Shown here: piece after piece, positions 19,494-25,954 of the stretch
How positions within the stretch are numbered: the stretch's first letter is position 1
Layout of the letters: each line of letters begins with the position of its first letter
NCBI RefSeq assembly: GCF_000758685.1
Contig: NZ_CP009286.1
Location: forward strand, 4,556,501 to 4,620,500
Source of the DNA: Paenibacillus stellifer
Lineage (GTDB): Bacteria; Bacillota; Bacilli; Paenibacillales; Paenibacillaceae
DNA length: 64,000 nt
Direction of reading: 5' to 3'
Made by a program: the position numbers and the translations under genes
The notes under the pieces: model-generated
The model's database searches: none
What the model was told of the DNA's origin: nothing
Seen by the model: only the letters and a program-made list of their open reading frames with translations

Positions 19494-19576
19494 AACTTGC
19501 CGCTACTTATGATAAGGCTCCCCGCGCTGTCTGTAACGGCAAGTTAAAGGGCCATCCTTTGCAGGAATGGCCCTTT
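19494..19576. repeat. Dispersed hairpin repeat, best-preserved copy, with second hairpin
   Basis: Perfect 9-bp arms AACTTGCCG (19494-19502) and CGGCAAGTT (19537-19545) enclose CTACTTATGATAAGGCTC and CCCGCGCTGTCTGTAA. It is followed at once by a second hairpin, AAAGGGCCAT / ATGGCCCTTT (19546-19576). The second hairpin ends about 40 bases from the yidC stop codon and probably serves as its terminator. Confidence 0.75.
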
Positions 19577-19617: not shown

Positions 19618-20469
19618 TTATAAATCTTCTACACCAGTGGGTAGGTTTTTACTCGCTATATTTGGTTTCGTGTACATTTTATTGAGTATGATCGTTTGTA
19701 CGATAATGAATATACCGCCAACCGCCCAATACAATGGTAACGCGGCGGGCATCATAAAAGAAAACACACCCATCATGATCGGTGACAACAATCCGATGAA
19801 AGCCATTTGGTTATTTTGGTTATTTTGATTTTGCTGATACTGCGCTGAAACGGATTGAGACACGCGGAATTGAACGTAATACACCGCAGCGGCAATAAGC
19901 GGCAAAATCATATCTGTTTTCCCCAAGCTAAACCACAGAAAATCGTGAGCTGCAATCTCTGGGGTACGACGAATGGCATAGTAAAATGCGAGGGTGATCG
20001 GCCATTGGATAAGCATCGGTAAACACCCCATGTTTAAGGGATTAAATTGATGCTTCTGGTAGAGCTGCATCATCTCGACTTGCTGTTGTTTTTTTGCATC
20101 CGCACTGACGTCGTTCTTATACTTCTCCTTAAGTGCAGTTAACTCCGGCTGGAGGACGGCCATCTTTTCTTTCATGTCCATTTGTTTCTTGGCTTGAATC
20201 ATCATGAGCGGCATGATCGCGAGTCTGATGATGAAAGTCATCATCACGATTGATAATCCGTAATCTCCGTGAAGTGCATTCGCGAAGAATTTGATCAAGA
20301 TCGAAAATGGATAAATAAAATAGTGGTTAAATATCCCTGGTGAGTCGGCATTAATCGAGATTGATTGGGATGCTGTCGAACACCCGCTAAGCACAATGAT
20401 CGGAATAACCCCAATCAACATGACGAGAATGGGCTTCGCCCATTTTTGGAGCAAAAAAATCTTTTTCAT
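19618..20469 (-). CDS. yidC: YidC/Oxa1-family membrane protein insertase (lipoprotein type)
   Basis: This protein of about 283 residues inserts and folds membrane proteins. It has a lipoprotein signal (IPIIVLSGCSTA, lipobox Cys), then five membrane segments. The conserved substrate-groove Arg lies in TFIIRLAIMP. The cytoplasmic C1 loop is charged (KKQMDMKEKMAVLQPELTAL) and is followed by MGCLPMLIQWPITLAFYYAI. It is an isolated copy, not in the rpmH-rnpA locus, so it is probably the second paralogue (YidC2/YqjG-like). ATG 20469 is preceded 6 bases upstream by GGGAGG, which is buried in a hairpin with the end of the upstream small gene. Confidence 0.88.
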   Translation of the reverse strand: MKKIFLLQKWAKPILVMLIGVIPIIVLSGCSTASQSISINADSPGIFNHYFIYPFSILIKFFANALHGDYGLSIVMMTFIIRLAIMPLMMIQAKKQMDMKEKMAVLQPELTALKEKYKNDVSADAKKQQQVEMMQLYQKHQFNPLNMGCLPMLIQWPITLAFYYAIRRTPEIAAHDFLWFSLGKTDMILPLIAAAVYYVQFRVSQSVSAQYQQNQNNQNNQMAFIGLLSPIMMGVFSFMMPAALPLYWAVGGIFIIVQTIILNKMYTKPNIASKNLPTGVEDL

Positions 20470-20471
20470 CG

Positions 20472-20519
20472 TGGTCCTCCCTAATTGAAAGTATGGAATA
20501 TCAATGTAGGGAAGGACCA
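20472..20519 (-). promoter_or_regulatory. Hairpin sequestering the yidC Shine-Dalgarno
   Basis: On the minus-strand mRNA, TGGTCCTTCCCTA (20519-20507) pairs with TAGGGAGGACCA (20483-20472): 12 pairs with one bulged base and a 23-base loop. The 3' arm contains the yidC ribosome binding site. The 5' arm is the coding sequence for the last residues (G-P-S-L) of the upstream small protein. A ribosome held on the preceding Asp codons would cover the 5' arm and free the site. Confidence 0.85.
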
Positions 20520-20731
20520 TTGTCGTCATCATCAGGCGCTTCTCTTCGTCTGACGGTACGTACTATCCACCGCTGAATGCTGCTCTGTTGCGACAGTCTG
20601 ACAGCCACAAACCAAGTTGAACCGGCTGCAGCAATTTCATGATCCCAGTGTATCTCTTGTAAAGAAAAATAAGTGTATGGAAGTATCACTATGGAAGAGA
20701 TGAGAGCGATCGTGAATGCCAATTGAACCAA
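20501..20731 (-). CDS. MifM-like arrest (monitoring) peptide upstream of yidC
   Basis: 76 residues. The N-terminus is one membrane segment (VQLAFTIALISSIVILPYTY), followed by a ~30-residue spacer and a C-terminus SSIQRWIVRTVRRREAPDDD-D-N-G-P-S-L-H. B. subtilis MifM has the same plan: N-terminal membrane segment, a W-I/Arg-rich stretch and an acidic cluster where the ribosome pauses, located just upstream of yidC2. The stop codon is 31 bases before the yidC ATG, and the codons after the Asp run form one arm of the hairpin hiding the yidC ribosome site. The only in-frame start is TTG 20731, with TGGAG 12 bases upstream; an ATG at 20736 is one frame off, so a sequence error or one-base change at the start is possible. 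No tool was used to confirm homology. Confidence 0.75.
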   Translation of the reverse strand: MVQLAFTIALISSIVILPYTYFSLQEIHWDHEIAAAGSTWFVAVRLSQQSSIQRWIVRTVRRREAPDDDDNGPSLH

Positions 20732-21069
20732 GTCATAAAAATGCTCCAGTCAAGTTCACCTCCGAATGAGCCATATTGGGAAGATTTGAATAATGGTTAT
20801 ACGTTAGAGAGACTTTATGGTTTCTAACCTGCCTGTTAGCTTACACATATATACAAATCCATGCCCCGCAAGGAATTCCGCAAAAAACAACTTTCCTTTG
20901 TTAGGGTTCTCCAAGCTGTCTATTTTAAGACTCTATCAGTTGAACCATACCTAAGTCGAACAGAGGATTATGATAGCGTTTTAATATTGTATTATTCTTC
21001 ACATGCACTAAAATTTTACAATGGTAAGCTTAATCATGTATGCCTTATGACTCTTTAGGAGGTAATATA
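20732..21069. other. Divergent intergenic region
   Basis: This gap lies between the divergent arrest-peptide/yidC unit and the PNPOx-like gene, and presumably contains promoters for both. A GGAGG on the minus strand (about 20757-20761) precedes a 6-codon TTG frame ending at the out-of-frame ATG of the arrest peptide. No further gene is convincing. Confidence 0.4.
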
Positions 21070-21540
21070 ATGAGCAAGTACGACGAAGCCATGAAGCTGC
21101 TGCAAGAACAAGTGGGTAACAAGGACGGCCTGATCTCTCTGTCCACCATCGCGCTGGAACCAGGGGCCGATGGCAAAAGCCGTCCCGCCGCCCGCATTGT
21201 GGACGCCTATTATGAGGACGGCGCGTTCTACACCGTCACTTACGCGACCACAGGCAAGATGCAGCAGATCGCCCAAAACCCCGAAGTCGCCGTTTGTATC
21301 ATCGTCGAAAACTTTACGGCCGATGGTATCGGTGAAAACCTGGGCTGGGTATGTGACGAGAAAAACGCGGAGATGATGACAAAGCTGCGCACCATATTCG
21401 CCGAGTGGTATTACGAAGCCAATAACGACGAAGACCCTAACACATGCCTGCTGCGCATTCGCCTGACAAAGGGCCTGTGGAATGACGCCCATAAAGGGAT
21501 CAGAAATGAGATTGATTTTGTCAATAAGACGGCAAATTAA
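21070..21540 (+). CDS. Pyridoxamine 5'-phosphate oxidase-like (split-barrel flavin) protein
   Basis: 156 residues: SKYDEAMKLLQEQVGNKDGL, SRPAARIVDAYYEDGAFYTV, TYATTGKMQQIAQNPEVAVC and LLRIRLTKGLWNDAHKGIR match the PNPOx-like split barrel, which binds FMN or F420/heme-like cofactors. Substrate unknown. ATG 21070 is 8 bases after AGGAGG. A terminator follows at 21613. Confidence 0.75.
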   Translation: MSKYDEAMKLLQEQVGNKDGLISLSTIALEPGADGKSRPAARIVDAYYEDGAFYTVTYATTGKMQQIAQNPEVAVCIIVENFTADGIGENLGWVCDEKNAEMMTKLRTIFAEWYYEANNDEDPNTCLLRIRLTKGLWNDAHKGIRNEIDFVNKTAN

Positions 21541-24882: not shown

Positions 24883-24979
24883 ATGAACTTCGAGGTGAAG
24901 GTGGCGCTCATTACAGGATGCGGCACGGGCATTGGCAGCGCAACCATAATAGCACTCGCGAAGCGTGGTGCTGTCGTGG
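24883..24979 (+). pseudogene. N-terminal SDR fragment cut by the IS110-family element
   Basis: MNFEVKVALITGCGTGIGSA and TIIALAKRGAVVA are an SDR start with the TGxxxGIG cofactor motif. At about 24979 the sequence switches to IS110 transposase sequence on the opposite strand. GAGAGAGGATG lies upstream. Related SDR remains at 27.5-28.2 kb could be the rest of this gene or of another SDR. Confidence 0.7.
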
Positions 24980-25954
24980 CTTCGAAGGCGCCGGACTGAT
25001 GCTTTCGCCATGTAAGGCCGGCATACTTGGCCACGGCGGCCTGATCCTTGAACCGTTCGATGTCGCCGAGTTCCCCGAGCAGGCCGGCGGCGTAGACCTT
25101 GCCGATGCCGGGTGCGCGCCCGGGATGCCGTCCAGAATGCGTTCAATGGCCTTGTCCAGATCCTTGAGTTGCTTCTGGATGCTGCGAATGGACTCGATGG
25201 ACGTGCCGAGCACAAGGTCAATGGAATCTTCCACGACCTTCGATAACCGGTAGGAGGCGCGGGCGGCTTGCTGGATGCAGCGAGCCACACGTTCAGGGTC
25301 GGGGAAGCGATTCCGCCCCTTGTCCCGCAGATAGTCAGCCAGGTCGGTAACATTCATCTCGGCAATGTCATCGAGGCTGAACTTCTCCGAGAGCATTTCC
25401 ATGTGGGCGTGGCCGAATACTGAACTGTCCACTTCGGTGGTGAAGGCATTGCACTTGTAGAACAGGTTCTGCAAGAAGCATTGCTTCTCCCGGGCGAGGT
25501 TGTGTACCAGGTGGAACCGCATGCGCGTAAGGCGCTGGAGCGCGATATACTGCTCCTGCATGACGAGGGTGGTCGTCAGGCGGCCGAAGTGAAGGCGATC
25601 CGCAATGACCCAGGCATCCAGACGGTCGGTCTTGTCCATGTCGGCGTAAGCTTCGCGGAACTTGCAGATGAGCTTGGGGTTCAGCGTAAACACCTTGGTC
25701 TTGCGCTCACGAAGTGCCGGGTCCTGGTGGAAATACATGGCCGGGTGCCAACTGTAGACGGAAGTAGCCTCAAGGCCGATGTGAATCTCAGATACGGCAA
25801 GCTTGTCCGCTGCGACAACGATACGGTCGCGAAGGTGAGAAGCGCCGTGAAGGTTATTGGGGACGGTGAACGATTCGAAGTTGTCTCCGTCCGAGTTCAT
25901 GAAACACGCTTCGAGCTCTTGGGAGCTCACGTCAATTCCGACAAAAAGCTTCAA
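24979..25954 (-). pseudogene. IS110-family transposase, frameshifted and truncated
   Basis: The N-terminal RuvC-like DEDD domain is recognisable: KLFVGIDVSSQELEACF (first Asp), IHIGLEATSVYSWHPAMYF (Glu) and FREAYADMDKTDRLDAWVIA (Asp pair). Near ERILDGIPGA (about 25130) the frame breaks: the C-terminal domain continues in another frame as GIGKVYAAGLLGELGDIERF and VAKYAGLTWRKHQSGAFEA, then ends at the junction with the SDR fragment. The final part with the catalytic Ser is missing, so it cannot be active. Confidence 0.8.

Follow-up and report, generated by a model that had tools for sequence, protein, structure and literature searches.

In Bacillus subtilis, a ribosome stalled on the upstream peptide MifM switches on the gene of a spare insertase when membrane insertion falters. 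MifM and CliM are the arrest peptides for which a monitoring of YidC has been demonstrated by experiment (PMC13183943). The arrest motif of MifM has been given as RIxxWIxxxxxMNxxxxDEED (PMC7897499), its stalls have been reported at codons 89-92 (PMC6037786), and stalling has been tied to residues Met90 and Phe85 of the ribosomal protein L22 (PMC4423224). A published survey assembled 572 MifM sequences from 592 Firmicutes genomes by selecting annotated upstream open reading frames (uORFs) whose residues 70 to 100 include an acidic stretch (PMC10987492).

The window analysed here, a stretch of 64,000 nucleotides from Paenibacillus stellifer, carries on its minus strand a uORF followed by a secondary yidC (yidC2, YqjG-type). 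With high confidence, this uORF is assigned to the MifM family of translation-arrest peptides, with a CUG start at 20749 and control over yidC2 in cis. By analogy with B. subtilis, it very probably stalls its own ribosome and so switches yidC2 on when membrane insertion falters. Read or computed from the sequences were the gene and its conservation, the hairpin and the geometry, as well as the pairing of the uORF with yidC2 and the YidC2 grouping. The locus is composed of the following features:

20757..20763, minus strand: ribosome binding site GGAGGTG of the uORF, identical or similar ahead of the CTG in relatives.
20501..20749, minus strand: uORF, putative MifM-family arrest peptide of 82 codons, with CUG start at 20749 and stop codon TGA at 20503-20501.
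20660..20731, minus strand: transmembrane segment predicted from hydropathy, approximately residues 7-30.
20522..20578, minus strand: arrest-like segment from I58 to D76 (IQRWIVRTVRRREAPDDDD), conserved in alignments A2 and A3.
20522..20533, minus strand: acidic codons D73-D76, predicted stall region by positional match to the acidic run of B. subtilis MifM.
20501..20519, minus strand: 5' arm of the hairpin masking yidC2, from the last base of the codon 77 region to the stop.
20472..20488, minus strand: 3' arm of the hairpin, including the yidC2 ribosome site.
20476..20481, minus strand: yidC2 ribosome binding site GGGAGG.
19618..20469, minus strand: yidC2, secondary YidC insertase of 283 aa with ATG at 20469 (PF02096, 2.3e-41).
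19546..19576, minus strand: probable intrinsic terminator downstream of yidC2, AAAGGGCCAT...ATGGCCCTTT, recognized by eye.

The uORF ends 31 bases before the yidC2 ATG at 20469 (minus strand) and contains a single hydrophobic segment, whose best 19-residue mean hydropathy is 2.07 (residues 7-25) versus 2.24 in the MifM of locus L091. The original prediction described a frame of 76 codons with one N-terminal membrane helix directly 5' of yidC; the position and the helix were confirmed, whereas the length was revised to 82 codons. The C-terminus, RWIVRTVRRREAPDDDDNG, agrees with the R-W-I-V-R-T-V-R-R-R-E-A-P-D-D-D-D-N-G given in the original prediction. The terminator-like hairpin right after yidC2 suggests a two-gene transcription unit. 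It is absent from the list of the terminator scan, which permits loops of 3-8 only, and the promoter scan found no sigma-70-like promoter upstream of the uORF. Elsewhere in the window, an IS110-type transposase (PF01548, residues 5-161 only) is located at 24914-25954. Across 20300-21100, no known Rfam element was matched at E up to 1. A PDB sequence search with the peptide gave no match at E up to 1, nor did the peptide match Pfam (E up to 0.001) or NCBIfam (E up to 0.1), against which the MifM of L091 obtained only an unrelated match far below the cutoff. Since neither Pfam nor NCBIfam matches, genome annotation probably misses or mis-starts the peptide; judging from the usual set of start codons, members with a CUG start would receive a wrong start or none in standard annotation.

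Similar to MifM-YidC2 (YqjG), the locus places a uORF with one N-terminal hydrophobic segment directly 5' of a secondary yidC and a hairpin over the yidC site. The likeness extends to the I..WI pattern followed by an acidic run 12-16 residues past the Trp. Within the window peptide (S57 to D76: S-I-Q-R-W-I-V-R-T-V-R-R-R-E-A-P-D-D-D-D), Ile58, Trp61, Ile62 and four acidic residues of the MifM arrest motif are kept. In contrast to MifM, the window has a basic run (RRREAP) before the Asp codons, a distance from the Trp to the acidic run that is one residue shorter, and a CUG start with 82 codons instead of 95 (PMC6037786). The proposal that the uORF has an arrest sequence of its own did not hold, since the arrest-like segment is common to the family, although in the window Ser57, Arg68 and Arg69 stand in place of the Arg69, Met80 and Asn81 of B. 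subtilis MifM. The locus also resembles that of CliM (uC_KYxIW, Clostridia), a YidC-monitoring uORF 5' of a yidC with a transmembrane segment and a C-terminal arrest region (PMC13183943), and that of the actinobacterial ApcA, a uORF 5' of yidC2 that causes translation arrest (PMC10987492). Unlike ApcA with its R-A-P-G arrest motif, the window uORF has E-A-P followed by Asp codons. The CliM motif K-(Y/W)-x-I-W is absent from the 82 codons, and none of R-A-P-P, R-A-P-G and R-A-G-P occurs near the C-terminus, which has R-R-R-E-A-P-D. Membership in the CliM or RAPP-like families is ruled out by the motifs missing from the 82 codons.

Upstream of TTG 20731 the frame stays open as far as CTG 20749, which lies in the frame of the uORF 7 nt behind GGAGGTG (20763-20757). 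Codon 1 is CTG in all 37 near rows of the alignment, while invariant or nearly invariant Leu codons elsewhere (10, 16 and 52) vary synonymously in these rows. In the 40 family loci that are more distant, the ribosome site is followed by TTG in 20, ATG in 11, GTG in four and CTG in four, with L078 left unassigned; the first candidate was taken in loci offering several, and L085 and L088 were assigned by eye. The invariance of codon 1, the synonymous change at other Leu codons and the turnover among TTG, ATG, GTG and CTG make up a start-codon pattern, and translation of the uORF appears to begin at CUG 20749. A start at TTG 20731 with 76 codons concerns the start only and would be compatible with a MifM-like mechanism. 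TTG is a standard start codon and occupies codon 7 in 33/37 near rows, but no ribosome site lies in front of TTG 20731, the other four rows have TTA, TTC or CTG at codon 7 compared with CTG in 37/37 at codon 1, and codons 2-6 have a dN/dS of 0.14. Moreover, the ribosome site shared with more distant loci is followed there by ATG, GTG or TTG; on this point and on the conservation of codon 1 the TTG start, a very improbable one, was rejected. As a guess, the retained CUG, being a weak start, may limit the flow of ribosomes to the point where a single stall sets the state of the switch.

The uORF is a genuine gene under selection. Its pooled pairwise dN/dS over codons 2-82 is 0.38 in 33 of the 37 near rows, L039, L040, L045 and L049 being left out and relatedness uncorrected. 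By part, the transmembrane segment has a ratio of 0.34 and the spacer one of 0.59; codons 51-72 stand at 0.23 and the acidic codons at 0.35. Over codons 77-82, synonymous change nearly stops (dS 0.04) while replacement continues, yielding a ratio of 4.3. Codon 78 is GGT, AGT, CGT or TGT in 31/37 near rows, hence its amino acid is free and two bases pairing near the yidC2 site are fixed. A protein constraint on the arrest-like segment (I..WI.R...RREAPDDDD) is followed by an RNA constraint on the next six codons, because these form the arm that hides the yidC2 ribosome site. A spurious frame is ruled out by dN/dS and synteny, and a chance frame is excluded since the uORF is conserved in many genomes.

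A scan of genome contigs recovered ten named Paenibacillus loci at 72-99% identity. The uORF profile matched 36/100 genomes of the genus (one match broken by stops in G050, another a 20-residue piece in G029) and a broader profile matched 223/394 genomes of the family, in 16/19 genera, in agreement with the expectation that the small frame and its C-terminus are conserved in relatives. An earlier family search had matched 101 family genomes, 46 of which were fetched for reading by place. In all 40 divergent family loci fetched, yidC lies directly downstream. Many of these relatives (L067-L077, L079-L087 and others) have a uORF without a stop before yidC, which continues across the yidC ribosome site and terminates within yidC; the length of the tail is therefore free and the distance from motif to site nearly fixed.

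Within the genus, the uORF and yidC2 are gained and lost together. Among the 36 genomes with a uORF, yidC2 is present in 34 (29 in one piece, four in two pieces and one truncated, in G029), the exceptions being G026 and G050. None of the 64 genomes without a uORF contains an intact yidC2, fragments occurring in two (G053 and G063). A YidC match was found in 100/100 genus genomes, and the YidC1 of the 64 uORF-less genomes is 32-38% identical to YidC2. Several individual genomes deserve mention. In G046, G055, G064 and G087, a full-length uORF match accompanies a yidC2 split into two frames at differing places, by pseudogenization or sequencing errors. The uORF is open in G026 (L032) and broken by stops in G050 (L047), each of them without a yidC2 match and each probably a remnant of recent loss. 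G051 has a second, partial yidC2 (G051:C139:2527-3039) beside the full copy, 97% identical to the window YidC2 over residues 109-282, which represents a duplication or an assembly artefact.

The relation to B. subtilis MifM was examined with sequence profiles. Five B. subtilis-type genomes gave no match to the Paenibacillaceae profile A3 at E 0.1, and a MifM query matched well only five Bacillus-type loci and no uORF of the Paenibacillaceae family. A3 finds members in other families of the Bacilli, including another genus of the B. subtilis-type family (best E 7.1e-6). From 50 genomes outside the family matching A3 at E up to 0.1, 13 loci were fetched, and yidC lies downstream in 12 of them (in one only in part), as it does in 5/5 in-family loci fetched alongside. 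Three loci of one Bacillaceae-type genus (L147, L148 and L152) have Gly in place of the Pro and an acidic run of only DD (RRYDAGDDTPSG and similar), so that the arrest region is altered further there. The mixed profile A7 aligned with the B. subtilis-type MifM profile A4 at a probability of 87.9 and a score of 34.6, compared with at most 19.0 in 400 column permutations. A3 and A4 directly reached a probability of only 28.7 and a score of 23.8 (permutations at most 18.2). As far as profiles can tell, these two ends are linked through intermediates and not directly.

The window genome encodes two YidCs, one of them yidC2 (LSGC resembles a lipobox by eye). YidC1 lies between frames resembling, by eye, rnpA and jag. 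In a tree of 28 YidCs from 14 genomes, the 14 YidC2s that follow a uORF split from the 14 YidC1s with a branch support of 100/100, and the window YidC2 falls together with those encoded behind B. subtilis-type MifM. The original prediction left open whether the uORF is a functional analogue or a divergent homologue. The members in other Bacilli, the match between A7 and A4 and the YidC2 grouping favour the homologue and led to the rejection of an unrelated analogue; from the same evidence, the best reading is that uORF and yidC2 represent a single inherited unit of the Bacilli, lost in many genomes. Residue 90 of L22 was inspected as well, because it differs in other lineages and a T72R suppressor has been reported (PMC4423224). 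The tip of the L22 hairpin reads KRFRPRAMGRA, with Met90 and Phe85, in 6/6 genomes searched, that of the window included, and coevolution with a changed residue 90 was rejected on account of this Met90.

In the window, the stem of 20519-20501 with 20488-20472 comprises 17 pairs and leaves two bases of the 5' side unpaired, at -22.2 kcal/mol and a z of -3.6 relative to dinucleotide shuffles of arm and loop. A hairpin burying GGGAGG had been foreseen and is real, although with a larger extent than the 12 bp (20507-20519/20472-20483) initially assigned. In 96/96 loci scored, the conserved Pro (or its substitute) lies 44-64 nt from the yidC2 site (53 nt in the window, 55 in L091 and 54-58 in five B. 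subtilis-type loci), and the folding z is below 0 in all 96, with a mean of -2.26. These loci include the five B. subtilis-type MifM loci and close relatives and contain 91 distinct hairpin stretches; for L032, which has no intact yidC2, the first GGAGG was used. The count left out L153 (no yidC, taken as a chance match), L154-L156 (no ribosome site by the rule used), L047 and L048 (uORF broken or a fragment), and L003-L007 and L010-L012 (named loci repeating a genome already included). The mean pairing of the yidC2 site is 0.92 versus 0.71 in shuffles, in which the G-rich site often pairs too, and 17 of 71 loci, taken singly, reach p 0.05 for site pairing.

Covariation of the stem, a prediction of the masking model, is clear in distant family members and slight in the close group of the window. 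Among 19 more distant members, changes on both sides occur in 7/12 stem pairs and the covariation is 0.269 versus 0.082 in shuffles, with 0/500 as high; when the partner is shifted by 1-3 columns, the value drops to at most 0.10. The stem is almost invariant in the window and 19 close relatives, with both sides changed in 2/17 pairs, a number reached by 88/500 shuffles, and a covariation of 0.044 versus 0.031 in shuffles.

The effect of a ribosome on this structure was modelled codon by codon, with an assumed footprint of 17 nt from the first base of the P-site codon. When the P-site occupies the fifth codon past the conserved Pro, the median cost of opening the site decreases from 10.0 to 2.3 kcal/mol across the 96 loci; in 95 of them the cost drops by more than 1 kcal/mol. 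For the window, the cost is 16.9 kcal/mol initially, 3.8 once the P-site reaches the third Asp codon, 4.6 one codon later and 3.3 at codon 77. The drop in L091 comes at the fifth and sixth codons after the Pro, corresponding to codons 88-89 of B. subtilis MifM, adjacent to its reported stalls at 89-92 (PMC6037786), if the 93-residue L091 row is offset by two from the 95-codon peptide. Expressed as pairing probability, the effect is less clear-cut: with the arm removed, the predicted residual pairing of the site is 0.6-0.8 in the window, approximately 0.8 in L072 and 0.1-0.4 in L091. It had been proposed that a ribosome on the Asp codons (20533-20522) would cover the arm, and the computation agrees, as most of the outer arm is cleared once the P-site has reached the third Asp codon. 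By this computation, the window shares with MifM a hairpin over the yidC2 site that a suitably placed ribosome opens.

The stall, its release by insertion and the induction of yidC2 are modelled on B. subtilis MifM. Translation would start at CUG 20749, and the N-terminal helix would emerge from the ribosome. With YidC insertase available, the helix would be inserted into the membrane and the resulting pull would let elongation finish, after which the hairpin 20519-20501/20488-20472 would form and yidC2 would be off. Upon poor insertion, the segment I..WI.R...RREAPDDDD would hold the ribosome on or just after the Asp codons, the footprint of the stalled ribosome would remove the 5' arm, and the exposed GGGAGG would permit synthesis of YidC2.

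Because the uORF stop codon of the window falls within the inner stem, a ribosome terminating there would open the hairpin as well. This accords with simple translational coupling, in which any ribosome finishing the uORF melts the hairpin with neither a programmed stall nor sensing. Coupling is nonetheless very improbable: the C-terminal segment is conserved more than it requires, the uORF stop of distant members lies inside yidC, past the ribosome site, with a nearly fixed distance from motif to site, and the downstream gene groups with MifM-controlled YidC2. An arrest peptide may alternatively respond to a signal other than YidC activity, such as Sec function, the membrane state or a ligand, and the N-terminal half is indeed less conserved across the family than the C-terminal motif. 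Yet the target gene encodes a YidC paralogue, which the genus has gained and lost along with the uORF, and the A7-A4 profile match together with the YidC2 grouping ties the peptide to MifM, which renders such a sensor highly unlikely. A MifM-type sensor of membrane insertion is the reading preferred here.

The main text of the MifM survey does not name Paenibacillus, and some of the Paenibacillaceae loci described here may already be within its set of 572 sequences (PMC10987492). Within the library searched, no paper on a YidC arrest peptide in Paenibacillus was retrieved. The new features are an unusual start and a changed arrest core within the known MifM kind. A broader proposal, plausible though somewhat short of probable, is that the strictly conserved CUG of the Paenibacillus clade makes weak initiation a selected part of the switch, and that MifM-yidC2 is an ancient unit of the Bacilli with the wider motif W[IL]xR..[KR]R[KR]E[AS]PD together with acidic residues, the arrest sequence of B. 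subtilis being one form derived from this motif. If this is true, start-codon turnover (CUG, UUG, GUG and AUG) at a fixed place would tune the set point of the sensor between species, and the conserved CUG would clearly exemplify a bacterial regulatory peptide in which non-AUG initiation has been selected. The family-wide natural variants, with their fixed geometry, covarying hairpin and replaced 'essential' residues, would make the arrest code readable from evolution and testable on the B. subtilis ribosome, which is well characterised and has a matching L22 tip.
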